The notes under the pieces were generated by a model, which had not been told where the DNA came from, searched no databases, and saw nothing but the letters and a program-made list of their open reading frames with translations. Below are positions 13 through 35,216 of a stretch of 35,216 bases of DNA, piece by piece. A program made the position numbers and the translations under genes. The DNA comes from a virus. Numbering within the stretch: the first letter of the stretch is position 1; each line of letters starts with the position of its first letter. The stretch is taken from positions 1 through 35,216 of the IMG/VR virus record IMGVR_UViG_3300025853_000300; one strand, given 5' to 3'.

Positions 13-177
13 TGTCTCAGTTTGTGTCTCAACGCAAGGGGGGTCCGTCTCGATTTGAGACATATTGTCTCACACCGCTTGGCGCTGCGCTGGCTCCCTG
101 TGGCATCGTGAGACACACTGCCTCATTCTGGCTCCCCTGGCGCTGTATCGGCGTGGGACGGGTGTATTTTTGTCTCA
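13..177. repeat. Cluster of TGTCTCA / TGAGACA heptamers
   Basis: Exact TGTCTCA lies at 13-19, 25-31, 66-72 and 171-177, and its reverse complement TGAGACA at 56-62 and 109-115. The copies at 56-72 form a 7-bp inverted repeat with a 3-base centre, and a further GTCTC/GAGAC pair lies at 47-61. A seventh copy starts the final 26 bases of the window (35191-35197). Such density in under 180 bases suggests a protein-binding site cluster, such as replication initiator, terminase or recombinase, but the binder is unknown. Confidence 0.7.
90..115 (+). repeat. Left arm of 26-bp inverted repeat
   Basis: These 26 bases are an exact reverse complement of the last 26 bases of the window (35191-35216). The match stops on one side at base 116, where the neighbours differ. 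On the other side it runs off the end of the window, so the true repeat may be longer. The arm includes one TGAGACA heptamer. Confidence 0.9.
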
Positions 178-187
178 TTGTATAGTA

Positions 188-316
188 TTGTGCACTATTG
201 TGCGTCGTTGTGCACGGTTGTGCACTATTGTGCGCTATTGTGCACTATTATTTTTGGTTGATTGTGCGTTATTGTGCGCAATATTGATTGATTGTGCGTT
301 ATTGCGCTAATTGTGC
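188..316 (+). repeat. 10-bp-phased TTGTGC iteron-like array
   Basis: TTGTGC starts at 188, 198, 208, 218, 228 and 238, exactly every 10 bases, then at 262, 272, 292 and 311, with a degenerate TTGCGC at 302. The full decamer is TTGTGCACTA in three copies (188, 218, 238) and close variants elsewhere. Ten-base spacing puts most copies on the same face of the helix, as expected for cooperative protein binding. An AT-rich block follows at once. An origin iteron array or a multi-site operator are the two best readings. It is not a CRISPR, because there are no spacers of usable length. Confidence 0.8.
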
Positions 317-371
317 GTTATTTTGGCCGATATCGTCTAGTTTTGTTTGATACCTTGACGCTTTTCTATTT

Positions 372-400
372 TTTAGATATTTTTTATATAAAAATATAAT
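372..400 (+). promoter_or_regulatory. Candidate promoter in the AT-rich block
   Basis: A perfect TATAAT lies at 395-400, with TTTAGA (4 of 6 matches to TTGACA) at 372-377 and a 17-base spacer. The predicted start near 407 falls at the left edge of the large palindrome at 406-435, so a protein bound there would block it. The block is so AT-rich that a chance TATAAT is possible. Confidence 0.4.
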
Positions 401-405
401 AGTAT

Positions 406-435
406 CCCATTAGGTATATAATATACCTAAGGGAT
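406..435. promoter_or_regulatory. Large palindrome, candidate operator
   Basis: The core at 410-430 is a perfect inverted repeat with arms TTAGGTATAT and ATATACCTAA around one central A. Allowing one unpaired base (409), the arms extend with CCC (406-408) pairing to GGG (431-433), and the outer AT pair also matches. It sits just downstream of the candidate promoter at 372-400 and contains another TATAAT-like core. It could be a repressor operator, an origin element or a cruciform. There is no T-tract, so it is not a terminator. Confidence 0.6.
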
Positions 436-2121: not shown

Positions 2122-4239
2122 CTACGCTAGCCGGTACGACATAACGGATCGGCCATTGCGTGCTTTGGCTTCCCTTTCGACAAGCGAGCCTTCAGCGATA
2201 AGCGCGGCGATCCACGCCTCGCAATCGCGGTCACGTACGGCGCGGAGAATATCGCGCTTACGCACGTAACCGTCTGCCCTCGCTTGCTTTTCAATGGAGG
2301 ATAAAACACGTTTAAGACCCCTTTCCCATTGATTCCCAGCGGCGTGGCGGTTTGCTAGGGACCAGAGGTCAGACGCGCACCGCTCGACTAGGCGCACGGC
2401 GAGGGCCTCGCCTTGTGCTGTAATCCTAGGGCTTGACGACAGCCCAGCGATAGCCATGGCTACCCTGTGGGCATGCTCTGCCTGCCTGCCCATCAATTCA
2501 TCCGGCACGTCTATATCTCCAAGTTGCCGCGCGCGATGAATTTCCAGATCGTAGTCGGCCAAGGTTTGGCCATCGGTCGACGGTATTGGCTCCGGCTTTG
2601 GGGCAACCATTGCCTCAGAATTGTTAAGCCAATTTTGCCGCGCGCGATCTAAATCTGCTAGAACGGTCGTGAGGCCTCGATCCTCAATCGATCCGGTTGG
2701 CTGGCGTTTGTCGGGAAGGATATGCTGTGCCCTGAAAACTAAGAAACGACCTAATAAACCATCCCTTAAAGAGGCCTCTCCAAGGACCGTGAGTAGGTCT
2801 TCAGGGGTTGCAGTGCCAAAGATTGACAAGCAAGGCGCATCGAGAACCTGCTGCCTCGCCTCGCCTCCCATTCGATCGCTTGCCGCGCGCTCGAACCGCA
2901 TAGCTTCAGTGCCCCAGGTGCCAAGTTCAAGCAGGATTTGGCCAGCCAGGGCGAGGTATGCTGGCGCTCTGCCGCCCAGGATTTGCCGCAGGAGTTTTGC
3001 TATTTCACCGCTCACGAGGCAAGCCCCCTGGCCCTTGTCGCTTGCCTCCTCCAGGGCATCGCGCAGGGCTTTAACCGATGGCATGCCTGCAATCACTTGC
3101 TCGCCTAAAGCTTGGCTCAAAGCTTTCATGGGCACGTCTTTGCCGCATGCGCTACCAGCAACGCCCAAGACGTACAGGTGCGAGGTCATGCCGTTCCAAT
3201 GCCACCTACGGCCAGCCAAGGTGGCTCCCAAGGCCAAGGTGGCCCCCGTAGCAAGCCCAGGCTGCCAAATGCGGCATTTGCCGCGCAGGTGGCGGAGAAA
3301 ATGCCTCGCAATGTCGCCCTGCTCGGCCAATAGAACGGCCAGTTCCTCGCGCTCCTCGTCTTCGAGAAAAGGGTCAGGTTTTGGTTTTAGTCCTTCTGGC
3401 TTAAGGTCTGCGTCATCGTCAATAACGATAACTTCGTTTCGCTCTTCTAAAAGATACCCGTGCGGCCTTCCTTGCGGGTCTGGGGTGTCGATGGCCGACA
3501 AAATCTTGTGCCGTAGTTCTTTCTCGCTCCAAGGAGGGTGGCAGCCCCCATTCCAATTCCACATGGCCTGTAGCGCATCCTCCTCGCCCAAGCCAAAGCC
3601 CTGCACCATCGCCCTGGCAACGCAAAGGGCCTGGTTGTGTCCTCCAGCCCCTGAAACAGCAGGGCGGCACCTTGCAGCGTACCGCTCAGCCTTCTCGCGC
3701 AAGCTCAGGTCGCTCACAGGGCGTTGTAGAAGGGTTAGGCTGCCTGGGCTAGGGGTAGGCTTCTCGCAAGCCTTACGGACGATCTCAGGAGGGCATGGGG
3801 CCACGTCGCCGCCGATGCCCTCGTACCTGCCACCGCCCGGACGAAACGAGCCAGCCCCGACTACGTAGCCGCCATCGCCGCGCACGTCCACTTTGGGGCC
3901 GAGCCTGCCTGCACTATTGGGAATTGTGGTACTAGCGCTGTAGTAAAAATGCCATCCGCCAGACGGCGTGCTGACCGCATAGGTAGGCGTAGCTGTAACC
4001 TCTTCAGGAACGTAGTCGCCATCGATATCGACAACAACAATGCCGCTGAACTTGCCGCACACCACGCCCCAGCCGGTCGGGTCTTGCAACCGCAGCCATG
4101 CCTCCACTTGCCTGATGTCATCGGTGTGGCTGCTCAACCAGCGCACCAATGGCCGTTTACCGTCCTCGCCACCCACGGGGAAGATGCGCCAGCCTCTCCC
4201 CAGCAGGTCTTTTGCCGCCTCCAACAGTTCTTCTTTCAC
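2122..4239 (-). CDS. Primase-polymerase / DUF3987-type replication protein
   Basis: This 705-residue protein should start replication by synthesising primers and probably unwinding DNA. The N-terminal PrimPol domain (about 1-160) shows the catalytic DID at 71-73, TPSGGWH at 91-97 and DVRGDGGYVV at 118-127, all hallmarks of the bifunctional primase-polymerase family. Residues 199-250 look like the primase C-terminal segment (HNQALCVARAM ... HPPWSEKELRHKI). From about 290 onward it resembles DUF3987 ATPases, with a P-loop-like GVAGSACGKD at 359-368. The start is GTG with a GAGGAG ribosome site six bases upstream, and it overlaps the thyX stop (GTGA). It is the last gene of the early minus-strand operon. 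The helicase role of the C-terminal half is inference. Confidence 0.9.
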   Translation of the reverse strand: MKEELLEAAKDLLGRGWRIFPVGGEDGKRPLVRWLSSHTDDIRQVEAWLRLQDPTGWGVVCGKFSGIVVVDIDGDYVPEEVTATPTYAVSTPSGGWHFYYSASTTIPNSAGRLGPKVDVRGDGGYVVGAGSFRPGGGRYEGIGGDVAPCPPEIVRKACEKPTPSPGSLTLLQRPVSDLSLREKAERYAARCRPAVSGAGGHNQALCVARAMVQGFGLGEEDALQAMWNWNGGCHPPWSEKELRHKILSAIDTPDPQGRPHGYLLEERNEVIVIDDDADLKPEGLKPKPDPFLEDEEREELAVLLAEQGDIARHFLRHLRGKCRIWQPGLATGATLALGATLAGRRWHWNGMTSHLYVLGVAGSACGKDVPMKALSQALGEQVIAGMPSVKALRDALEEASDKGQGACLVSGEIAKLLRQILGGRAPAYLALAGQILLELGTWGTEAMRFERAASDRMGGEARQQVLDAPCLSIFGTATPEDLLTVLGEASLRDGLLGRFLVFRAQHILPDKRQPTGSIEDRGLTTVLADLDRARQNWLNNSEAMVAPKPEPIPSTDGQTLADYDLEIHRARQLGDIDVPDELMGRQAEHAHRVAMAIAGLSSSPRITAQGEALAVRLVERCASDLWSLANRHAAGNQWERGLKRVLSSIEKQARADGYVRKRDILRAVRDRDCEAWIAALIAEGSLVEREAKARNGRSVMSYRLA

Positions 4240-5015
4240 AACGACTCCTCAATGATTACGCGGTATTGTTTCCATCCCTTAAAATTGGCGCTTGGCTCGT
4301 CAGTTTCCATCGCCATGGCTTGGTGCTCGAACGGTGACCAATGGCCGTCTTCTTTCAGCCGATTGTGTAGCTGCCAGTCTTGGTTGAACGTGCTTTTCTT
4401 GCCATGGTTCATGTAAGAAACCCTGGCTGCTCGGGCTACGCTCTGCGCCATTTGTACGATGGTTGTTTTGGTCGGGTCTGCATATGGCAGGTGCCAGTCG
4501 CCAGGGTGCAGGATGGCTGGTTCACTGCTGTAGATGGCCTGCTGCATCGCCAGGGCAAGCTTGCCCATTTCATGCTGGGCACCGGCCCCAGGCAAACGCA
4601 ACTTAAAGAAATTTTCCCATTCCGTTGACGTCACCAGCACCTTGGTCCACATGAATGGCTCCAAAAGCCGGTTGGCGATTTCCTTGTGAACCCCCAAATG
4701 CTCAAGCCATTCGTGGTGCTTTACGGCATCGCTCAAAGCCTGCCGCCATGCCCGTTCGCTGGCCCCTGCATGTGAAGCGTCGAGCGCCTCGCCACCCTGC
4801 ATACCTTTTTGATTGCGTGGCCAAGCAGAGGGAATGTACGGGTTCTCTAACACTTGCGCACGCAGCGTCTTGAGCGGGATGGCCCTGCTGCTGGCACTGT
4901 TGCGGCTAAAACAGCGGTGCGTGTTCAACTGAGCTACCAGCCATTTCGGCATGGTTAGCTCCAGGGTTGTGATGCGCGTTGTGCAGATGCTATCTGCAAT
5001 GATTTCAGCTTTCAT
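4236..5015 (-). CDS. thyX: Flavin-dependent thymidylate synthase (ThyX)
   Basis: ThyX makes dTMP from dUMP using FAD, NADPH and methylene-tetrahydrofolate, raising thymidine supply for phage DNA. The 259-residue protein has the signature region at 32-44 as THRCFSRNSASSR, where the family consensus is RHRxxSxNExSxR, so the first Arg and the Glu are replaced. Other conserved pieces are HKEIANRLLEPF (110-121), EWENFFKLR (132-140), ARAARVSY (194-201) and HWSPFEH (225-231). I start it at the ATG at 5015, which begins the family-like MKAEII; the frame stays open upstream to 5237 but there runs over the neighbouring pyrophosphohydrolase gene. It overlaps that gene by 11 bases and the primase gene by 4. 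Confidence 0.9.
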   Translation of the reverse strand: MKAEIIADSICTTRITTLELTMPKWLVAQLNTHRCFSRNSASSRAIPLKTLRAQVLENPYIPSAWPRNQKGMQGGEALDASHAGASERAWRQALSDAVKHHEWLEHLGVHKEIANRLLEPFMWTKVLVTSTEWENFFKLRLPGAGAQHEMGKLALAMQQAIYSSEPAILHPGDWHLPYADPTKTTIVQMAQSVARAARVSYMNHGKKSTFNQDWQLHNRLKEDGHWSPFEHQAMAMETDEPSANFKGWKQYRVIIEESL

Positions 5016-5358
5016 GGTGATAGCACCCGTCCTTTGCTGGCTTGCTTGGCCATTTGCGAAGCCTGTTCTTCTCAAGCTTTGCGTGGATGACTTTTTCAGG
5101 CAAAAGCCCAAGATCCTTAATGGCTTGCCAGCAACGCTCGGGCAGCCCAACAGGCATACCTCCCAACTGTTCGCATTGCGTGGCCAAGAAGAACACGTCT
5201 GCAAGCTCTTCAGCGGCTTCAGCGCATTCTTTGACAAGATGGTTGCCAGCCCCCTTTAGTTCAGCGTCAGGAAACTGACGGCGTTGCCAGTCTCCTATCT
5301 CTATTTGTAGGCACTTAAGCAGTGCGCTGTCTTCGATACCTAATTCTGGTTTGTTCAT
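5005..5358 (-). CDS. MazG-like nucleotide pyrophosphohydrolase (dATP/dGTP type)
   Basis: The 117-residue protein resembles the phage dATP/dGTP pyrophosphohydrolase branch of the MazG superfamily, which hydrolyses nucleoside triphosphates to monophosphates. The metal-binding helix pair is visible as HLVKECAEAAEELADVFFLATQ, giving the ExxE and ExxD pattern, and the C-terminus has the typical KLEKNRLRKWP block followed by DGCYHH. The start ATG has a GAGG ribosome site. It precedes thyX directly and the two overlap, which fits a joint role in nucleotide pools. A role in degrading the ppGpp alarmone, known for some MazG proteins, cannot be judged here. Confidence 0.85.
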   Translation of the reverse strand: MNKPELGIEDSALLKCLQIEIGDWQRRQFPDAELKGAGNHLVKECAEAAEELADVFFLATQCEQLGGMPVGLPERCWQAIKDLGLLPEKVIHAKLEKNRLRKWPSKPAKDGCYHHES

Positions 5359-5918
5359 GCTTCCACCTCTAGTCTTTCTTTCAATGCCGCCAGCATGCGT
5401 GCCCTCGTTGCACGCACTGCTTCTTTCGATACACCCTGACTCTTGGCTACCTCAGTCAGGTCGCCATGATCGGACGCTGCCAAACGCACCAGCATGTCTC
5501 CCAAGCTAATGCTCTTGGCCGTATTTCGCTCGGCCAGTAAGATAGCCACCTCTCGACGCACAGCGTCAAGCAAGCGTGATTGGTCGGGGTCTGGCGACTC
5601 GGCAGCCAACTGCAAATTCTGCTCGTCGTCGTCTAGGTCTGCGTGCTGCACATGTTCTCTCGATGCACGTTTGCCCATGGCGTAGTGCATTTCCAGATGC
5701 TTTTGCTGCATGTGGCCATCCTTGCACAGCAACCACGTCCAGTTCTTCAAGCTCATTTCTCTTGTGTCGTCGTAAGACCTGTAAGCCTCAATAACACGCA
5801 TGCGCAACTCTTGCGCATATTCGTCGGCCCAGTGCCGGCCCCACTTCTTTGCCAGCTTTGCTACCAGCGGCTCGCAAGCCGCCAGCCATTCAGTTTCAGA
5901 ACGGTACTTCTTCGTCAT
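5355..5918 (-). CDS. Sigma-70-family-like transcription factor
   Basis: This 187-residue protein has the layout of a small sigma factor. The N-terminal half resembles region 2 (WADEYAQELRMRVIEAYRSY ... WTWLLCKDGH), an acidic linker follows (around LDDDEQNLQ), and the C-terminal half is a helix-turn-helix like region 4 (DLTEVAKSQGVSKEAVRATR). I choose the ATG at 5918 because AGGAGG lies nine bases before it; an upstream ATG at 5939 has its own codons made of that ribosome site. It overlaps the helicase gene by 23 bases. A natural role is to direct host RNA polymerase to the late operon, whose upstream region lacks an obvious host promoter, but that link is inference. Confidence 0.7.
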   Translation of the reverse strand: MTKKYRSETEWLAACEPLVAKLAKKWGRHWADEYAQELRMRVIEAYRSYDDTREMSLKNWTWLLCKDGHMQQKHLEMHYAMGKRASREHVQHADLDDDEQNLQLAAESPDPDQSRLLDAVRREVAILLAERNTAKSISLGDMLVRLAASDHGDLTEVAKSQGVSKEAVRATRARMLAALKERLEVEA

Positions 5919-7506
5919 CGGCCATCCCCTCCTTTTCAAATCCCCAAGCGATTACTCGGGCGTATTTGCCATCTTGTCTCACCCGTATGGTTTTTGGTTC
6001 CCGTAGGAACGAAAGCTTGTCTAGTGCGTCTGCCACGGTCGTTGGCGTTACCATCCCCCTAGTATGCAACTCCCACCAGCGCTCGGCCATGTGCCTCGCC
6101 CTGCCGGTGTGCTCCAAGCAGATGAACTCGCTTGCAACCGCTTGGATGCTTTTATGGTTAAAATAATCAACGCGCAACATTTTTTGCTCAGTTCGCTGAG
6201 AAAAATATTCGCAGATTTTTCTCTCATCGATTTCAATGACTTGCGGCTGCTTGCTGATAATGTCCAAGCTTGACGCCTCAATATTGGCCTTTCGCGTCTT
6301 GGTCGGTGGCGGGAATTCATGATTGCAATGCTCACACAACCGCTTGCTGACAAACACTTCAGCATAGCATGAGGGGCACACCTTTAACGGCACATTCCGG
6401 TCGTTACTCGGCTGCGGTGTCTTTATGCGGATGTCGTCAATGGGGCCATGACGCGCCGTGTTGCCGCCGTAGTCGTAAACTAGGCAGTCCGTTTTATGCT
6501 GGGCGATTCTCATGCCTCGGCCCACAACCTGCACCCAGAGGCTCGGGCTCTGCGTTGCTCGCACTACAAAAAGCGCATCGGTCTGCGGGGCGTCAAAGCC
6601 TGTGGTTAAAACATCGCAGTTAACTAGGCATCTCAGGTTGCCATCCTTGTAAGCCTTGAGAAACCTTGAGCGTTCACCGGCAGGGGTAGCACCGGTCACC
6701 ATTTCGCAACTTACGCCGGCCATGCGGATTGCGTTGCGCAGGTGCGCCGCATGCTCAACGCCGCAACCGAAAACGAGGCAGTGCTGGCGCTTGCTGCCTA
6801 CGAGGTCTGCAACTACGGCGTCGGTGACAGCGTCAACGTCTGCTGCCAACTCCAAGTCCTTGGCGACATATTCGCCTTGGCTTGTACGAACGCCGGCTAG
6901 GTCAATGGCTGCGGTCGCTCGGCCTGGGAGCATCGGACTCAGGAAGCCCTCGGCGATCAAACGCTTAACGTCGATGCGGTAGGTAATCGAATCGAACAAT
7001 CGATCCTTACCTTGCGTCAGCATGCCTTGGCCTAGACGGTAGGGCGTGGCTGAAAGCCCCAAGATACGAATGTGCGGGTTTTTGTCCCTAAGCGCGCTGA
7101 TAAGCTTACCATACTGCCCATTAGACTTTGGCGACACCAAATGCGCTTCGTCAATGATAAGCACGTCAATGTGGCCAAGCACCGCAGGCTTGCGGTATAG
7201 GCTCTGGACGCCACCCACCGTGACCTTGCGAATCTGCTTCTTGCCCAAGCCTGCACTATAGATGCCCACATCGGCCTCAGCCCACACACGCCGGATGGCC
7301 TCTGCATCCTGAGCGATAAGCTCCTTGCGATGTGTAATAACTGCAACCCTGCCGTTATGCTCGCCAGCCACCCATTGACACACTGCGCCAAGGATTGCGG
7401 ACTTGCCGCTACCTGTAGGAGCTTCGATTAGCTGGTTGCCGCCACCGCCAGCCCAGTAGGCCTTGATCTTGGCAACCGCCTCTTCTTGGTACCATCGTAG
7501 TTTCAT
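5896..7506 (-). CDS. SF2 DEAH-box helicase with zinc ribbon
   Basis: This 536-residue superfamily 2 helicase shows all main motifs: motif I APTGSGKS at 29-36, DEAH at 119-122, SAT at 152-154, motif V TTGFDAP at 301-307 and motif VI QVVGRGMR at 326-333. After the helicase core comes a four-Cys zinc ribbon (CPSC at 377-380 and CEHC at 391-394) and a C-terminal extension of about 140 residues. The N-terminus LRWYQEEAV is the Q-motif-like start seen in ResIII/RadD-type enzymes. It likely remodels DNA during replication or repair. There is no ribosome site before the ATG, and a candidate promoter places the transcription start at or next to the start codon, so the mRNA may be leaderless. Confidence 0.9.
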   Translation of the reverse strand: MKLRWYQEEAVAKIKAYWAGGGGNQLIEAPTGSGKSAILGAVCQWVAGEHNGRVAVITHRKELIAQDAEAIRRVWAEADVGIYSAGLGKKQIRKVTVGGVQSLYRKPAVLGHIDVLIIDEAHLVSPKSNGQYGKLISALRDKNPHIRILGLSATPYRLGQGMLTQGKDRLFDSITYRIDVKRLIAEGFLSPMLPGRATAAIDLAGVRTSQGEYVAKDLELAADVDAVTDAVVADLVGSKRQHCLVFGCGVEHAAHLRNAIRMAGVSCEMVTGATPAGERSRFLKAYKDGNLRCLVNCDVLTTGFDAPQTDALFVVRATQSPSLWVQVVGRGMRIAQHKTDCLVYDYGGNTARHGPIDDIRIKTPQPSNDRNVPLKVCPSCYAEVFVSKRLCEHCNHEFPPPTKTRKANIEASSLDIISKQPQVIEIDERKICEYFSQRTEQKMLRVDYFNHKSIQAVASEFICLEHTGRARHMAERWWELHTRGMVTPTTVADALDKLSFLREPKTIRVRQDGKYARVIAWGFEKEGMADDEEVPF

Positions 7507-7512
7507 GTCTTA

Positions 7513-7541
7513 TATTTAGAGGTCATTTGCAAAAAACGCAA
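7513..7541 (-). promoter_or_regulatory. Leftward candidate promoter of the replication operon
   Basis: Read on the minus strand, TTGCGT (7541-7536) and TAAATA (7518-7513) are separated by exactly 17 bases. The predicted start falls at about 7506, the first base of the helicase ATG. The minus 35 box overlaps the palindrome at 7539-7552. Confidence 0.5.
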
Positions 7542-7552
7542 CCGGCCGGTTG
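7539..7552. promoter_or_regulatory. 14-bp palindromic operator between divergent promoters
   Basis: CAACCGGCCGGTTG is a perfect 14-bp palindrome. It overlaps the minus 35 boxes of both the leftward promoter (7536-7541) and the rightward promoter (7550-7555), so one bound dimer could shut both early operons at once. GCAACC at 7538-7543 also has an inverted partner GGTTGC at 7564-7569. The small HTH proteins at 8718 and 8923 are candidate binders; this is inference. Confidence 0.65.
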
Positions 7553-7579
7553 ACATTTTGTGTGGTTGCCTCCTATTTA
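7550..7579 (+). promoter_or_regulatory. Rightward early promoter of the recombination operon
   Basis: A consensus TTGACA at 7550-7555 and TATTTA at 7574-7579 are separated by 18 bases. The predicted start near 7586 coincides with a ribosome site AGGAGGTGA (7586-7594) that is fully complementary to the 16S rRNA tail, six bases before the ATG at 7598. The leader would be only about 12 bases. Confidence 0.65.
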
Positions 7580-7597
7580 TGTTGCAGGAGGTGACGG

Positions 7598-8269
7598 ATG
7601 AAAATCGTCAATTTACAGGAACGCCTGCAAGAAGCCACGCTAAACATTGTGGTTTACGGACAGGCGGGGGCTGGCAAGACCAGCCTGATTAAAACTTTGC
7701 CAGGGCGTGTTCTGGTTGTCAGCGCGGAAGCAGGCTTACTGTCCCTGCGGGGTTTCGATGCCGATGTGGCAGAGGTGGCCACCGTGGATGACTTGCGTGC
7801 AGTGCATGGTGTGCTTGCCAAGGGCGGTCACAATTATGACTGGGTTGCAGTCGATAGTCTAAGCGAGATTGCGGAGTTGGTGTTGGCTGCTGAGAAAGCC
7901 AAGACACCAGACCCTCGCAAAGCTTACGGCACGCTAGTGGACCAAATGATGGCCGTCTGCCGTGCATTTCGTGAACTGCCCATCAACGTCTATATGTCGG
8001 CCAAGGCGGAGCGCGTGAAGGACGAGGGCACGGGCAGGCTGATGGAAGTCCTGTCAATGCCTGGGGCCAAACTATCGAACCAGATTCCGTATCTGTTTGA
8101 TGAAATATTCCGGCTGGCAGTCGGCAAAGACCGTGACAGTGGAGAGATCATTCGGATGCTGCAAACAGCACCGGAGCCTACGTCAGACGCCAAGGACCGC
8201 AGTGGTCGCTTGGAACAATACGAACCCGCTGACCTCGGAGCCGTGGTCAGCAAAATTAAAGGAGAGTGA
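7598..8269 (+). CDS. Sak4-like RecA-fold ATPase (single-strand annealing)
   Basis: This 223-residue protein looks like the phage AAA_24/Sak4 family, which uses a reduced RecA fold to promote strand annealing together with a phage single-strand DNA binding protein. The Walker A loop is GQAGAGKTS at 21-29 after a short strand (LNIVVY), and the Walker B strand is WVAVDS near residue 82. The length is typical for the family. It opens the plus-strand operon behind a near-perfect ribosome site and is followed by a DUF669-like protein, a RecB-like nuclease and a RuvC-like resolvase, a recurring phage recombination cassette. Confidence 0.85.
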   Translation: MKIVNLQERLQEATLNIVVYGQAGAGKTSLIKTLPGRVLVVSAEAGLLSLRGFDADVAEVATVDDLRAVHGVLAKGGHNYDWVAVDSLSEIAELVLAAEKAKTPDPRKAYGTLVDQMMAVCRAFRELPINVYMSAKAERVKDEGTGRLMEVLSMPGAKLSNQIPYLFDEIFRLAVGKDRDSGEIIRMLQTAPEPTSDAKDRSGRLEQYEPADLGAVVSKIKGE

Positions 8270-8271
8270 GC

Positions 8272-8718
8272 ATGTTCGCAGATAATGAAAATGATTTTGA
8301 CTTTGGCAGCCTGAACCTTGAGGAAGTCACGCTTGACGACTACTCTGACATTCCCGACGGGGAGTACAACGTAATCATTGAAAGCGCGGAGGCCAAGCCG
8401 CACGCCGATGGCCACGGCAAACGTCTGAGCTTTAAGGTGCGGCTGCTGGATGGCCAGTTCCGTGGGCGCACGCTGTACGATGGCTTGTCAGTTGTGCACC
8501 GTAACGAAATGGCACAGCAGATTGCTCTGCGCAAACTGAAGACGCTCATCGAGGTCACGGGCGGTCGTGCACAGAAGCCTAGCGATCTGGTTGGCGCAGA
8601 GTGCGTTGCTCGTATTGGCATGTCGAAGGGCGGTAACGGCTACGAGCCTAAGAACGAGGTCAAGGCGTACAAGCGCGGCAAAGTTGTTTCTGCACCACAG
8701 TTCCTCGGGGGTAAGTGA
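8272..8718 (+). CDS. DUF669-like phage protein, probable ssDNA-binding partner
   Basis: The 148-residue protein matches the pattern of the DUF669 family: an acidic N-terminus (DNENDFDFGS), DGEYNVIIESAEAKP, a strand block around RLSFKVRLLDGQFRGRTLYD, and a C-terminal FLGGK. Members sit next to Sak4-type ATPases and RecB-like nucleases and are thought to act like single-strand binding proteins; that role is inferred from context. I start it at the ATG at 8272, which has AAAGGAG seven bases upstream; the GTG at 8266 is too close to that site. The preceding gene ends at 8269. Confidence 0.8.
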   Translation: MFADNENDFDFGSLNLEEVTLDDYSDIPDGEYNVIIESAEAKPHADGHGKRLSFKVRLLDGQFRGRTLYDGLSVVHRNEMAQQIALRKLKTLIEVTGGRAQKPSDLVGAECVARIGMSKGGNGYEPKNEVKAYKRGKVVSAPQFLGGK

Positions 8719-8930
8719 TGGCAAGAGCGATAGATGATATCTACGAGGAACTGATGGTCGACCACGCCCTGCGGGTGGAGGAAGTCGCCAGCAGGGCAGA
8801 AGTTGGCGTGTCAACCACAAAGCTTGCTCTCAAGAAGCTCTTGGAAGAAGGCAAGGTGCAGCGCGAGCTAATCAGGCAGGGAGGCGCTGGTCGTCCAGCG
8901 TGGTTCTACACGAGGCTACCTAATGGATGA
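8718..8930 (+). CDS. Small winged-helix DNA-binding protein
   Basis: The 70-residue protein reads as one winged helix: a helix-turn-helix (LRVEEVASRAEVGVSTTKLALKKLLEEG) followed by a wing (KVQRELIRQGGAGRPAWFY), the last part typical of MarR/TrmB-like wings. The ATG at 8718 overlaps the stop of the DUF669-like gene (TGATG). Its own stop overlaps the next gene by 8 bases. It may regulate early transcription or bind DNA in recombination; no data separate these. A 14-bp operator-like palindrome lies upstream of this operon. Confidence 0.7.
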   Translation: MARAIDDIYEELMVDHALRVEEVASRAEVGVSTTKLALKKLLEEGKVQRELIRQGGAGRPAWFYTRLPNG

Positions 8931-9207
8931 CCGTTTTATCGGTTACCTGCTAAGAGGCGACATCCGGCTTTTTCGGCCGGATCGCCTTAAGGCGGTACGA
9001 GTACAACACAACAAGTCGCAAACGGAGATTGGCCAAGTGCTTGGTGTTTCGCACCAGACGATTGCTCAGTGGGAGCTGGGCAAGTCTTGGCCAAGCAACG
9101 AAAACGCACAGAACCTAATGCGAATCCTCGGGGTCGATGGGCCTCGGGTGTTTGTAAAACTTATGGAGGTAGTGGAAGATGAGTTGGAGCATTCCGAAAA
9201 AAACTAG
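8923..9207 (+). CDS. Xre/Cro-type HTH protein
   Basis: This 94-residue protein has a clear Cro/C1-type helix-turn-helix at about residues 24-65: LKAVRVQHNKSQTEIGQVLGVSHQTIAQWELGKSWP is split between the scaffold helix, the Q-rich recognition pair and the conserved WExGxxxP turn. The remainder is an acidic C-terminal tail. The start ATG overlaps the end of the winged-helix gene. It is a candidate for the protein that binds the palindrome at 7539-7552. A lysogeny repressor is less likely, because it lies inside an early operon and there is no integrase. Confidence 0.8.
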   Translation: MDDRFIGYLLRGDIRLFRPDRLKAVRVQHNKSQTEIGQVLGVSHQTIAQWELGKSWPSNENAQNLMRILGVDGPRVFVKLMEVVEDELEHSEKN

Positions 9208-9910
9208 GCGCAAATACCTTGACGCCAAAGGCAACAAGCTGCCCAGCGTCACCGAAATCCTCGGTGGCCTTGGTTGGAACCGTGAAGTCCTGATGGGCTG
9301 GGCCAACAAGATTGGCCGCCAAGGGCAGACGATCAACGAGGTGCGAAACCCGAAGGCTGATGCCGGTACGCTGGCGCATCACCTGATTGAATGCGAGTTG
9401 ACCAACGTGCCATGGAAGGAGACGCAAGAATTCTGCGAGTCCCCAGAGGATTTGCAGGTTAAGGCCATGCAGGCGTTGGAGGTTTGGAACGAATGGTGGA
9501 AAGGTCGCGAGGCGGACGGCTGGGAGGTTGTCGATGCTGAGGTTGCCATGCAGGATGACGATGCTGGCTTTGCCGGTACGTGCGATTTGTTCTTGCGTGA
9601 CCCGAATGGCGAGCTAATCGTTGCCGACATTAAGACAGGTTCACCACACGCTGAAGCCATCATCCAGATGGCGGCTTACGGTATACTTTACGACGAAACG
9701 CCTAAATATGCTCTGTTGATTCACGTTCCCACAGACGGTCGGCCAGTAACCTGCCACTTTGCCAGTGATGACACGTTGCGTCAGGCAGAAGAGATTTGGG
9801 AGAATCTGCTGAACATCTCAAAGTACAAAAAGGCTTGGGCGGCCATCGGGAAGAAGATGTACGCCGACACACCCAAGCTTGAAGAACCCAAGAAAGCGAG
9901 TCCGTTTTGA
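9179..9910 (+). CDS. RecB/Cas4-like PD-(D/E)XK nuclease
   Basis: The 243-residue protein has the full RecB-type nuclease signature: GTLAHHLIE (63-71), GTCD at 133-136 supplying the first acidic residue, the D150-IKTG block giving D-x-K, and QMAAY at 163-167. It probably resects DNA ends to give single strands for the Sak4-like annealer encoded upstream. The start ATG at 9179 has GGAGG about 10 bases before it and overlaps the HTH gene by 29 bases. The length fits phage members of this family. Confidence 0.88.
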   Translation: MSWSIPKKTRRKYLDAKGNKLPSVTEILGGLGWNREVLMGWANKIGRQGQTINEVRNPKADAGTLAHHLIECELTNVPWKETQEFCESPEDLQVKAMQALEVWNEWWKGREADGWEVVDAEVAMQDDDAGFAGTCDLFLRDPNGELIVADIKTGSPHAEAIIQMAAYGILYDETPKYALLIHVPTDGRPVTCHFASDDTLRQAEEIWENLLNISKYKKAWAAIGKKMYADTPKLEEPKKASPF

Positions 9911-10389
9911 CGAAACAGGTCGACCTAATCAATGCAGTTTCTATCGGGGTTGACCCCGGGCGCATCACAGGCTGGTGCGTGGCCGTCAATGGTAAGCCGG
10001 TGGCGTGGGGGCAAGGCGAGGCCGAGAAGGCCGCAGATTCGATTCTGGCGGAGATACTCGGCTTGGATGAACCTGTGACCCTTGTGCTTGAGAGCGCCTT
10101 TCAGGGGCGCTTTGGGGCCGGCGTGGCGGTAGCGTTTCGGGCGGGGCTTATCCTTGGCATCTTGCGCGGGGGCTTGCCCCAGTACAGCACGGTAATCAAG
10201 TGCCCTGCTACGCAATGGCGCAGGGCCTTGGGCTGGCCAAAGCTGAAGCGCAAAGAGGCTAAACAGTACGCGATGCGTACAGCCTTCGAGCTGACCGGCG
10301 ATGCCGAAACCAAGATGGCTACCAGGGAGCATGTTGCAGAAGCCATCTGCATGGCCGTTGCGGCTCAGACGCTAGAGGCGGAAGGGTAA
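9907..10389 (+). CDS. RuvC-like Holliday junction resolvase
   Basis: This 160-residue protein has the RNase-H-fold layout of RuvC-like resolvases: GVDPGRITGW with the first Asp at 16, LVLESAF with Glu at 62, and an acidic EHVAEAICMA helix near 141-150 for the remaining metal ligands. It would cut branched DNA before packaging. The start is a TTG at 9907 overlapping the TGA of the nuclease gene, and there is no ATG or GTG nearby in frame before the first conserved strand, so I keep TTG. It is the last gene of the recombination operon. Confidence 0.8.
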   Translation: MTKQVDLINAVSIGVDPGRITGWCVAVNGKPVAWGQGEAEKAADSILAEILGLDEPVTLVLESAFQGRFGAGVAVAFRAGLILGILRGGLPQYSTVIKCPATQWRRALGWPKLKRKEAKQYAMRTAFELTGDAETKMATREHVAEAICMAVAAQTLEAEG

Positions 10390-10420
10390 AAAAAAGAACC
10401 CCCACTACAGGTGGGGGTTC
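10388..10420 (-). terminator. Terminator of the late operon (leftward)
   Basis: A perfect 10-bp stem (GAACCCCCAC with GTGGGGGTTC) with loop TACAG lies at 10396-10420. On the minus strand it is followed by eight T (10395-10388), so it ends leftward transcripts coming from the late operon, whose last stop is at 10477. Confidence 0.9.
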
Positions 10421-10439
10421 CCAAAAACACACGTAACTA

Positions 10440-10465
10440 GGAGGTGGCGGTAGCCACCTTCTTTA
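10440..10465 (+). terminator. Terminator of the recombination operon (rightward)
   Basis: A 9-bp stem with one G-U pair (10440-10448 with 10453-10461) and loop GGTA is followed by a short T-rich stretch on the plus strand. It lies downstream of the resolvase gene and next to the leftward terminator, so the converging operons are insulated from each other. The T-tract is short, hence moderate confidence. Confidence 0.6.
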
Positions 10466-10476
10466 TAGGTGGCCTG

Positions 10477-12927
10477 CTATTGGTTTGTCAACTGGTCCTC
10501 TTGCATCTTCTCATAGACGATATTGCGCACCATGGCCCTGGCCTCTGCATCTCCACCCGCCAACAGTCGCTGAATGGTGCTCATCTCGCTTTGGGTTATT
10601 TTGCCTTGCGCCTCAAGCTGGCTGATTGCCTGATTCAATTGCTTGTCTGTTAGCTCAACCATGCTTTCAATTGGCTCAAGAGCTGATCGCATTTGCTGCC
10701 TTGCAAACTCTTGACCCTCGCCTGCCCTCGATGCGATGTCCGCAACATTTTCCTGTGCATCCTCAACGGCTTGGTTTGCTAAACGCAATTGCTCGTCTGC
10801 CAGCGGTGACGGCGCAGCGTCAAACGCTTCTTTGGCTTGCCGTTGCGCCTGCTGCGCCTGTTGCAGGGTTTGTTGCGCTTCCTCAAGGGTTTGCTGTTTT
10901 CTTCCTATGGTTTGCGCAAACTCGCTGGCACCAACATCAAAGATCCCAGGCTCTTGCAGCTTGGCAAGCTTTTCTTGTTCTGCCGCAAGTCTGGTCGCAG
11001 CGGCTTCTCGACCCGCTTGGCTCGCTTGCTCGTATGCCTGCTGCGCCTGCGCAACAGCCTGCTGCTGACTTTCAAGCGCCTGCCTGTAGGCAGTCTGCTC
11101 AACACCAACAGGGCCAACCTCGCTCAACGCTTGTTGCTGGCCGGCAAGCCTCTGTTCAAGAATCTGACGCTCTCCTGGTGCTGCTGCCTCACCTTTCATA
11201 ACTTGGCGGATGTCCCCCTTAGTCGATGGATACGCTTCAAACAGCCCAGGGGCTTTGGGTCTTGGCAGGACTTCTGGTGCAACTTCAGGTGCGGCAGCCT
11301 TTTCTGCTTGAGCGGCACGCTCGGCTGCTCGCTTTTCACTTGCTTCCTTAGCTGACTCCCTAGTGATGCCATACTTCTTATTCAGCTTGCGGTTTAGCGT
11401 TCTGAAGTCCATTCCAATTGCGTCTGCTGTTTTGCGTAAACTTTCACCCATTGCATACGCATCCTCTAAAAATTCTCTCTCCTCCTGGCTCTCTCCTCGC
11501 TGATATCTAAACTGCTCGCCCGTTAAAGCAGGCTTTTCAGCAGGAGCCTCAGCCTTGCCTTTTGCTTCAAACTGTTTTGCTGCCTCTTCAGACTTCTTAG
11601 CCGCATCAAGCTGTTTTCTGAATGCGTCCATTTGCTCGTCTGACTCTTCCATCAGCCGGCGCAGCACGCCTATCATGCGCTCTTGGCCCTCTTGGCTTTC
11701 TATCTTAGCCTGGGTCTTGGCGATCTCTTTTTCGAGCCCTTTTTTGACAGCTTGCTCTTGTTTTCCTGCTTCTACTTCTGCTCGTCTGGTTAGCCCTTCC
11801 AATGCAGATTCTTTTTGGGTTAATGCTTTCTGCGCTGACTTAACGTCTGCCGCCTCTGGAATCTTACCCGCTTCAATATCGGCAATGGCTTTCTCGCTCG
11901 CCTTAACGTCTGCCCGTCGCGCTTTTCCTGCGGCAATCTCGGCGCGACCTGTAAGCTTGTCGATCTCATTGGACAACTGGTCAACATATTTCTGAGCAGA
12001 GGATACAGCTGCGTCGGCCTCTTGCAACGCATTGTACTCTGGCGTCCCCTGCTTAAAGTCGCCCTTGCTAATTCTTGTTTGAAGCCTAGCTAGTTCCTTT
12101 TCTGCTTTAGCAAGCTCCTTTTTCGCAGTCCTTGCCTGCGTTATGTCTTTTTGCCTAGCCGCCTCTATGGCTTTTTCCCCCTCACCTCGCCTAGATGCGA
12201 CCGTAATCTCCAACTTGCCTTTTGCCTTTTGCAAGTTGTCTATGCTTGTAAGTATTTTCTGGGTAGTCTTCCCGATGCCTGTTTTGGCCTCGATTTGGGC
12301 TGCAACCTTCTCACCGTACTTCCTGGCCAGCGGCGTGGCCAACGGGTCTAAGCCTTCACCAATCGCACCACCCAATGCGCCGGCAGCCATTCCCCCTGCA
12401 ACGCTTTTATCCTCAAGACCGGCTTGTAGGCCGCCAAGGCCAATATCGCCAGCAACACGGGCAGCGCCTTGTTGGATCGCAGATTTGCGTGCCAATTGTT
12501 TTGCAGCCTCTTTGCTCATACCAGATACGGCCTTGGGGCCAAGCTTTGTTGCCAACGCAGTAGCACCGCGACCAACTAAAGAAGTTGCCCCAAACGGTGT
12601 TACTGCCCCAGCAATCGATCCGCCTAGCGCAGCATCAGGATATTGCTGCTCAAGGATTTGCAACTTTTCAGCCGCGCTAAATCCAGTGTCGCCAGTATCT
12701 CCAAAATATTCGGCTAAGGCATCAAGCATAGGCTGACTAAGCCCTGCTGACGCTGAACTCATTGCGCTACGAACAGCGGTGCCAACGGGGCCTGACTCTT
12801 CCGCAAATTGCCTTGCGCGTTCAACCGTTAACCCAGGCTGCGGTGCATCTGCCCCTGGGAGCATGCCATCTTCAATCGCAACCGTATCTTTGCTGGCTAG
12901 GCCCAACATTTCTTCATAAAGACCCAT
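10477..12927 (-). CDS. Large coiled-coil internal virion / ejection protein with Fis-like HTH
   Basis: This 816-residue protein is dominated by Ala/Gln/Glu/Lys-rich coiled coil (about 220-460 and 585-760). A Gly/Ala-rich stretch at about 100-195 could be an amphipathic or membrane-active region, as in podovirus ejection proteins. Its place at the end of the late operon, after two other coiled-coil proteins, also fits an internal virion protein delivered into the cell. Unusually, residues 481-521 read as a Fis/NtrC-type helix-turn-helix (EREFLEDAYAMGESLRKT, then ADAIGMDFRTLNRKLNKKYG). I see no lytic transglycosylase motif. The start has AGGGG seven bases upstream. Function is inferred from context. 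Confidence 0.65.
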   Translation of the reverse strand: MGLYEEMLGLASKDTVAIEDGMLPGADAPQPGLTVERARQFAEESGPVGTAVRSAMSSASAGLSQPMLDALAEYFGDTGDTGFSAAEKLQILEQQYPDAALGGSIAGAVTPFGATSLVGRGATALATKLGPKAVSGMSKEAAKQLARKSAIQQGAARVAGDIGLGGLQAGLEDKSVAGGMAAGALGGAIGEGLDPLATPLARKYGEKVAAQIEAKTGIGKTTQKILTSIDNLQKAKGKLEITVASRRGEGEKAIEAARQKDITQARTAKKELAKAEKELARLQTRISKGDFKQGTPEYNALQEADAAVSSAQKYVDQLSNEIDKLTGRAEIAAGKARRADVKASEKAIADIEAGKIPEAADVKSAQKALTQKESALEGLTRRAEVEAGKQEQAVKKGLEKEIAKTQAKIESQEGQERMIGVLRRLMEESDEQMDAFRKQLDAAKKSEEAAKQFEAKGKAEAPAEKPALTGEQFRYQRGESQEEREFLEDAYAMGESLRKTADAIGMDFRTLNRKLNKKYGITRESAKEASEKRAAERAAQAEKAAAPEVAPEVLPRPKAPGLFEAYPSTKGDIRQVMKGEAAAPGERQILEQRLAGQQQALSEVGPVGVEQTAYRQALESQQQAVAQAQQAYEQASQAGREAAATRLAAEQEKLAKLQEPGIFDVGASEFAQTIGRKQQTLEEAQQTLQQAQQAQRQAKEAFDAAPSPLADEQLRLANQAVEDAQENVADIASRAGEGQEFARQQMRSALEPIESMVELTDKQLNQAISQLEAQGKITQSEMSTIQRLLAGGDAEARAMVRNIVYEKMQEDQLTNQ

Positions 12928-34661: not shown

Positions 34662-34794
34662 ACCTGGTAAATATGCGACAAACCCCTAAAATGTCCACTT
34701 GTCTTTTTAGGGTTGCCGATTTGGGGCTTAGTCTGCTATAAAACTAGCTGGAGCATTGTGTTCCACACCAATTTAACCAGTCTTTAGCAAGGAG

Positions 34795-34829
34795 TGTGCC
34801 AAAAAGAGAAGTGACCGGACAGTGGCACA
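34795..34829. repeat. TGTGCCA / TGGCACA inverted repeat
   Basis: Two 7-base arms (34795-34801 and 34823-34829) form an inverted repeat with a 21-base gap, followed by a run of A. The arms are long enough to be an operator, and with no downstream T-tract on the plus strand it does not look like a terminator. Confidence 0.5.
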
Positions 34830-34910
34830 AAAAAAAATTGCCACCATTCCCTTAATAAAAACGGTTACTTACCCTATAGTGTCACAGTGTCCCTATACGC
34901 GCGAGAGATA

Positions 34911-34929
34911 AATATAGCTTGGCTATATT
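34911..34929. repeat. AATATAGC / GCTATATT inverted repeat
   Basis: Perfect 8-base arms surround a 3-base centre TTG. It lies in AT-rich DNA upstream of the late operon and is a possible operator or hairpin. Confidence 0.55.
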
Positions 34930-34942
34930 GCGCTATCCTATT

Positions 34943-34959
34943 ATCTTTTATTAAAAGAT
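34943..34959. repeat. ATCTTTTA / TAAAAGAT palindrome
   Basis: A 17-base palindrome with a single central T, 13 bases after the previous inverted repeat. Together they form a compact pair of dyads, as expected for binding sites in a control region. Confidence 0.55.
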
Positions 34960-34984
34960 CTAAAGAATATAAGAGTATAAAACA

Positions 34985-35008
34985 GGGCCGCAAGGCCTAT
35001 TTTTTTTG
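34985..35008 (+). terminator. Possible terminator in the right region
   Basis: GGGCC pairs with GGCCT (one G-U pair) around a GCAA tetraloop at 34985-34998, followed after one A by a T-tract to about 35007. The stem is short. It could stop rightward transcription or be coincidental. Confidence 0.4.
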
Positions 35009-35190
35009 GTCAAATCCCTATTTTTTTGCTTGCAAAAACTTTTTTTGCCGTTCTAGTACGATTTTTGTTGACACGCATTATGCAACCAAGCGCTAGAAAT
35101 GCCTGATGCACGTTAAAATAGGCCTGTCAACAGGGTTTTTTGCGAAAAAAACAAAAAAAATAAGTCAAGAAAAAAGCGACTACCCCCCTA

Positions 35191-35216
35191 TGTCTCACGA
35201 TGCCACAGGGAGCCAG
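35191..35216 (-). repeat. Right arm of 26-bp inverted repeat, at the window end
   Basis: The last 26 bases are the exact reverse complement of 90-115 and stop because the sequence stops. In a circular reading the two arms would be separated by 89 bases and could fold into a 26-bp stem. Confidence 0.9.

Follow-up and report, generated by a model that had tools for sequence, protein, structure and literature searches.

The left end of this virus genome carries a dense array of the hexamer TTGTGC ahead of the first genes, raising the question of what function the array serves. The window analyzed is the whole record, a single virus sequence of 35,216 bases classed as linear, in which no direct end repeats are present and whose ends may be incomplete. 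It encodes structural and lysis proteins (a P22-like portal, large terminase, tail protein, and endolysin) and a replication module comprising a PrimPol-helicase, thymidylate synthase, a sigma-region-2-like protein, a DEAD/ResIII helicase, Sak4, and a DUF669 SSB-like protein, together with an HTH_3 protein, a PD-(D/E)XK nuclease, and a RuvC-like resolvase. The protein encoded at 5355-5939 has a sigma-70 region 2 match (Pfam, 7.8e-6) and is a possible phage sigma factor. In our own gene calls only two gene-free gaps exceed 100 bp, one at each end (1-749 and 34662-35216), and most cis-acting sites should therefore be located there. The original prediction placed a candidate replication origin at the array. 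The favored single reading remains that the array together with the AT-rich block at 330-430 forms an origin of the iteron plus unwinding element type, with a probability of about 0.5. It is favored because the array is far above chance, is the sole such cluster in the record, and adjoins the weakest 100 bp, and because it lies in one of the two gene-free gaps of a genome encoding a PrimPol, a helicase-like domain, and a predicted winged helix. Neither GC skew nor third-position skew gave a usable signal for a replication start.

Direct reading locates ten exact TTGTGC copies over 188-316. The first block (188-243, plus strand) is composed of six copies starting at 188, 198, 208, 218, 228, and 238 with an exact 10-bp period and 4-nt spacers that differ (ACTA, GTCG, ACGG, ACTA, and GCTA). 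The second block (262-316, plus strand) has copies at 262, 272, 292, and 311 and a one-base variant, TTGCGC, at 302, and is in phase with the first at 10.5 bp/turn. All ten positions of the original prediction are thereby reproduced, and its proposal that the copies align on one face of the helix stands in part, with the ten copies lying on roughly one face at 10.5 bp (vector R = 0.80) but R falling to 0.43 at exactly 10.0 and the 10-bp spacing being exact only for the first six copies and the 262/272 pair (later intervals are 24, 20, and 19 bp). Helically phased direct repeats of a short site, as expected of an iteron origin, are thus present. The arrangement TTGTGC-N4-TTGTGC occurs six times in the record compared with 0.02 expected from shuffles. 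In the left 760 bp the ten copies within 130 bp compare with a maximum of 3 in 2,000 Markov shuffles, and no 6-mer of any sequence exceeded 4 copies in 500 shuffles. No other 6-mer clusters as densely anywhere in the record (the runner-up has 4 copies); a single isolated TTGTGC is found at the right end, and the motif clusters nowhere else.

The variation of the spacers around a constant 6-bp core points to selection for a binding site and not to slippage of a 10-mer. Partition and attachment sites can likewise hold direct repeats spaced at about 10-11 bp, and many of the TTGTGC arrays found in bacterial genomes consist of perfect tandem 10-mers; a partition-type centromere, integrase arm sites, or a functionless tandem repeat derived from slippage could also be envisaged here. 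These readings are very improbable, as the variable spacers are unlike those of slippage arrays and no partition or integrase gene was recognized among the scanned proteins or, by eye, in the listed ORFs. Integrase arm sites were rejected specifically because no integrase was recognized among the scanned proteins.

The array adjoins a block at 330-430, the 100 bp of lowest stability in the record and a candidate DNA unwinding element. Its nearest-neighbor energy is -1.073 kcal/mol/bp compared with a record mean of -1.470 (sd 0.074), placing it 5.4 SD below the mean, and its GC content is 22% (27% over 317-436). An adjacent AT-rich unwinding element, the second feature expected of an iteron origin, is therefore found; the second least stable DNA of the record is in the right-end gene-free gap. 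Within the block a TTTAGA box and, after a 17-bp spacer, a TATAAT (395-400) form a sigma70-like promoter directed toward the early genes (372-400, plus strand, 10 of 12 matches), which is weak evidence, with three promoter-like sites found in the region compared with 3.2 by chance. A perfect palindrome at 410-430 (TTAGGTATAT-A-ATATACCTAA) lies within a larger imperfect hairpin (401-437), a possible operator or cruciform, for which arms of at least 10 arose in 2 of 200 shuffles. The AT-rich stretch of about 100 bases holding a TATAAT and a large palindrome is thus as originally described. Further stem-loops are located at 441-514 (TGGGACACTGTTTTTGCT / AGCGGAAACAGTGTCACA, with a 38-nt loop) and 558-600 (AAAATGGTGTCACAG / CTTTGCCGCCATTTT), and the fold z-score of 400-620, with its three predicted hairpins across 401-600, is -4.1. 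The 21-bp palindrome had no match in viral contigs, and Rfam gave no match. The features that define an iteron plasmid origin, DnaA boxes and a plasmid-type Rep gene, are absent, with no TTWTNCACA in roughly the first 800 bp or the last 600 bp of the record and no Rep family recognized among the scanned proteins, the latter agreeing with the original prediction that no known Rep is obvious.

The same arrangement can be read as a control region, in which cooperative binding of a phage regulator to TTGTGC would govern the rightward early promoter at 372-400, the AT block would be the promoter region, and a second motif, TGTCTCA, would provide the sites of a second regulator. The array is directly upstream of the promoter-like sites and of the palindrome near the expected start, and the phage encodes the HTH_3 protein, a small winged-helix-like protein, and the sigma-region-2-like protein. 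Six TGTCTCA/TGAGACA half-sites are present at 13-177, including a palindrome TGAGACA-TAT-TGTCTCA at 56-72, and an imperfect TGAGACA-CAC-TGCCTCA also occurs within 1-177. The record as a whole has nine half-sites (one at the right end) compared with 3.8 expected, and from their sequence they are likely operators of a separate dimeric regulator. Diverged elements also recur in one order in both end gaps, as two co-controlled promoters would be expected to show. Ten direct half-site copies over 129 bp are however long for an operator, the promoter-like sites are no commoner than chance, and operators usually recur near other promoters, whereas TTGTGC clusters only here. Control of the early promoter through the array is considered unlikely but is still a serious rival of the origin reading.

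The elements shared by the two ends include a 26-bp segment (90-115, plus strand) that is the exact inverse of the last 26 bases (35191-35216, E = 7.6e-8). This match may belong to a longer terminal inverted repeat, form a stem at the junction of a circular molecule, or stem from a chimeric assembly. Two more stretches at the left, 361-405 and 537-599, correspond to diverged elements at the right end in the same order and in inverted orientation, including GTGTCACA and TGCCACCATT. Taken with the 26-bp match, they give the two record ends the appearance of a single control region present in diverged, inverted copies, an arrangement compatible with both a linear and a circular molecule.

The strongest reason for caution on the origin reading is the left end of T7, which has a nearly identical layout of short direct repeats before early promoters and genes. 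T7 has CCTAAAG repeats with a 13-bp period at 175-338, immediately internal to its terminal repeat, promoter A1 at 498, and its first gene at 925, and here the array is at 188-316, the promoter-like site at 372-400, and the genes start from ~750. By this analogy the TTGTGC array would mark the left end of a fixed-end linear genome and would act in end processing or packaging, not in initiation. In a T7-like contig bearing DUF7227 (G001, L290), a separate array of GCGCAC phased at 10 bp (L290:220-560) is located at the left end, between the contig end and DUF7227, and both ends of the present record fall in gene-free gaps and share the 26-bp inverted match. The T7 repeats differ in having a 7-bp unit and belonging to a phage with its own RNA polymerase, compared with a 10-bp period, a 6-bp unit, and no T7-type RNA polymerase (PF00940) in this record. 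T7 carries such repeats at both ends, unlike the isolated TTGTGC at the right end here, and the record, classed as linear, is without direct end repeats, although its ends may be incomplete. A role of the array in end processing or packaging is a possible but rather unlikely explanation. The presence in T7 of a similar array in the same place but with another replication system nevertheless weakens the origin reading.

For an origin at the array, the likeliest candidate initiator judged from domain matches and models is the PrimPol-helicase (2122-4239, minus strand, 705 amino acids; Prim-Pol 6e-26, DUF3987 3.1e-6), which is proposed to bind the iterons. The N-terminal domain matches Pfam Prim-Pol and gives profile matches to the primase structures of NrS-1 and to 7ola, which is from SaPI5. 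The last 116 residues, modeled with one distant homologue, form a helix-strand-helix-helix-strand-strand arrangement with pLDDT of ~80-90 over the last 65 residues, and Foldseek matches this model to winged-helix regulators at ~2 Å over 60-80 columns with marginal E-values near 0.01, so the C-terminal domain is predicted to be a winged helix. The whole-protein model from the single sequence has a pLDDT of 38. The naming of the PrimPol as a candidate in the original prediction is borne out to this extent. The second protein it put forward, a Cys-cluster protein at 1182-1898, is a DUF7227 protein and was rejected as an initiator or Rep, as DUF7227 is an early gene in phages that replicate by unrelated systems (148 phage records, including T7-like phages, 140-150 kb phages, and mycobacteriophages) and phased arrays are not enriched upstream of it (10/79 upstream compared with 9/76 downstream).

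Binding of the array by a protein, the identity of that protein as the PrimPol, and a replication start at this site are inferred. The TTGTGC iterons would hold several molecules of the phage initiator on one DNA face, and the resulting strain would open the adjacent weak block at 330-430, where a helicase ring would load and a primer would be made. The C-terminal winged helix would bind the iterons, the helicase domain would open the block, and the PrimPol domain would prime. Both ORF904 and NrS-1 PrimPol prime at GTG (PMC8718748). This trinucleotide is within each TTGTGC, and the array might also offer sites for primer initiation, although ~6% of random 6-mers also contain GTG, making this only a weak hint.

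The position of the weakest DNA relative to the PrimPol gene was compared with that in seven annotated phages encoding homologous PrimPols (22-42% mutual identity; L338-L344; phage AP-16-3 covered over 50 of 61 kb), in each of which the weakest 100 bp was located. In six of the seven it is downstream of the PrimPol gene, at distances of 161, 208, 213, 569, 1520, and 2433 bp, and in the seventh it is 902 bp upstream; in this record the distance is 1742 bp downstream. Random placement within 2.5 kb downstream has a chance of ~5.6% per genome, giving P ~2e-7 for six of seven, a value to be read with the 2.5-kb limit having been chosen after seeing the data and with some of the seven lineages being related. 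Weak DNA gathers in promoter-rich gaps, and the positional result could reflect promoters instead. By eye in the same seven annotation tables, no such proximity holds for the annotated helicase or large-terminase genes, where named: the 2.5 kb downstream of them does not contain the weakest DNA. The origin reading is strengthened by this positional agreement in six of the seven phages and by the block next to the array being the weakest of the record.

The gaps themselves differ between these phages. Escherichia phage Shy has six TATAAG copies in the gap downstream of its PrimPol gene next to the weakest DNA (0 of 300 shuffles reach six), and the Synechococcus phage Ssp-JY40 gap has four AACCGA copies and a stem-loop with 12-bp arms. 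No non-coding gap in the seven phages holds an array of the length of the TTGTGC array, which weakens the origin reading, and in four of the seven the gap has no significant repeat, indicating that iterons do not always accompany a PrimPol of this class. A conceivable but improbable reading is that phages replicating with an archaeo-eukaryotic PrimPol-helicase have in common an origin at the weakest genome DNA, on the downstream side of the PrimPol gene, which in this lineage has turned into an iteron origin with each repeat binding the winged helix and offering a GTG priming site once per helical turn. Few origins of such phages are known, those of NrS-1 and BIP-1 being only suggested, and the positional rule, seen in six of seven deeply diverged phages, offers a direct means of picking candidate origins in many genomes. 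The TTGTGC array reduces the test to one small DNA piece and one protein domain.

Several known replication systems combine some of these features. The repeats of the P4 origin are 10 bp in length. Like the system proposed here, P4 encodes a single primase-helicase whose C-terminal domain is a winged helix (predicted here) and has direct repeats in its origin, and its alpha protein binds the origin repeats through the winged helix (PMC4234260). The primase of P4 alpha is of the bacterial type (TOPRIM) compared with the archaeo-eukaryotic PrimPol here, and the iteron sequence also differs. The staphylococcal and Gram-negative phage-inducible islands (pri/rep-ori) similarly have iterons by an AT-rich melting region and a phage-type primase/helicase, with 7ola matching the PrimPol profile. 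The island iterons are on both sides of the AT-rich stretch (PMC6092414), whereas all TTGTGC copies of the region are left of the block, a one-sided arrangement that further weakens the origin reading, and the islands are satellites, unlike the present phage with its structural genes.

The plasmid pRN1 and Bordetella phage BIP-1 share the combination of a PrimPol, a helicase, and a winged helix (predicted here), and in both the origin, with a stem-loop, has been placed on the 3' side of that gene, by deletion in pRN1, which needs the region 3' of the gene (PMC4234260), and by prediction in BIP-1. These proposed origins are without iterons and directly 3' of the gene, whereas here a small operon intervenes and the site is 1.7 kb further away; the only structure immediately past the 3' end of the PrimPol gene is a short terminator-like hairpin (2084-2112), and the stem-loops at 401-600 are on its 3' side but at least 1.5 kb away. 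The pRN1 protein shows no specific binding to its own origin region, which counts against the origin reading here. NrS-1 also has the PrimPol domain (a profile match here), and the phage likewise encodes a helicase and an SSB. Its PrimPol primes at TTTGGTTA or GTG (PMC8718748). NrS-1 is not known to have an iteron array, unlike the arrangement here, and its two TTTGGTTA sites are mid-genome, with none in this record. If the origin reading is right, the pairing of iterons with an archaeo-eukaryotic PrimPol-helicase in a phage with its own virion genes would be new, as a variant of known systems; no paper joining phage, PrimPol, origin, and iteron was found in the literature searched.

No DNA relatives of the record were found in phage or plasmid records, and no relatives were found through the terminase, capsid, and DUF7227 peptides in viral contigs or through the portal protein in phages. 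Two viral contigs share the PrimPol neighborhood, L333 with 88-89% DNA identity over 2890-10978 and L334 with 79% over 4033-9073, so that close relatives exist in fragmentary form, and both end before the array; no relative covering it was found in the phage, plasmid, or viral-contig searches. Phased TTGTGC was rejected as a family signature, as a 4-copy pattern finds only three unrelated loci and a 3-copy pattern mainly matches P88-type P2-like prophages and perfect tandem 10-mers. In the prophages, L047:9457-9482 and ~90 similar loci, three 10-bp-phased TTGTGC copies are located between an 87-amino acid gene and a portal-looking 348-amino acid gene, and L047 has a ParM/StbA-like gene near the array. 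Imperfect TTGTGC/TTGTGT arrays also occur between genes at L103:7060-7150 and L336:10490-10545, the latter with Mu-like head genes. A DUF7227-bearing contig has approximately nine head-to-tail TTATCCACA DnaA-box-like repeats spaced ~10-11 bp apart (L311:2318-2440).
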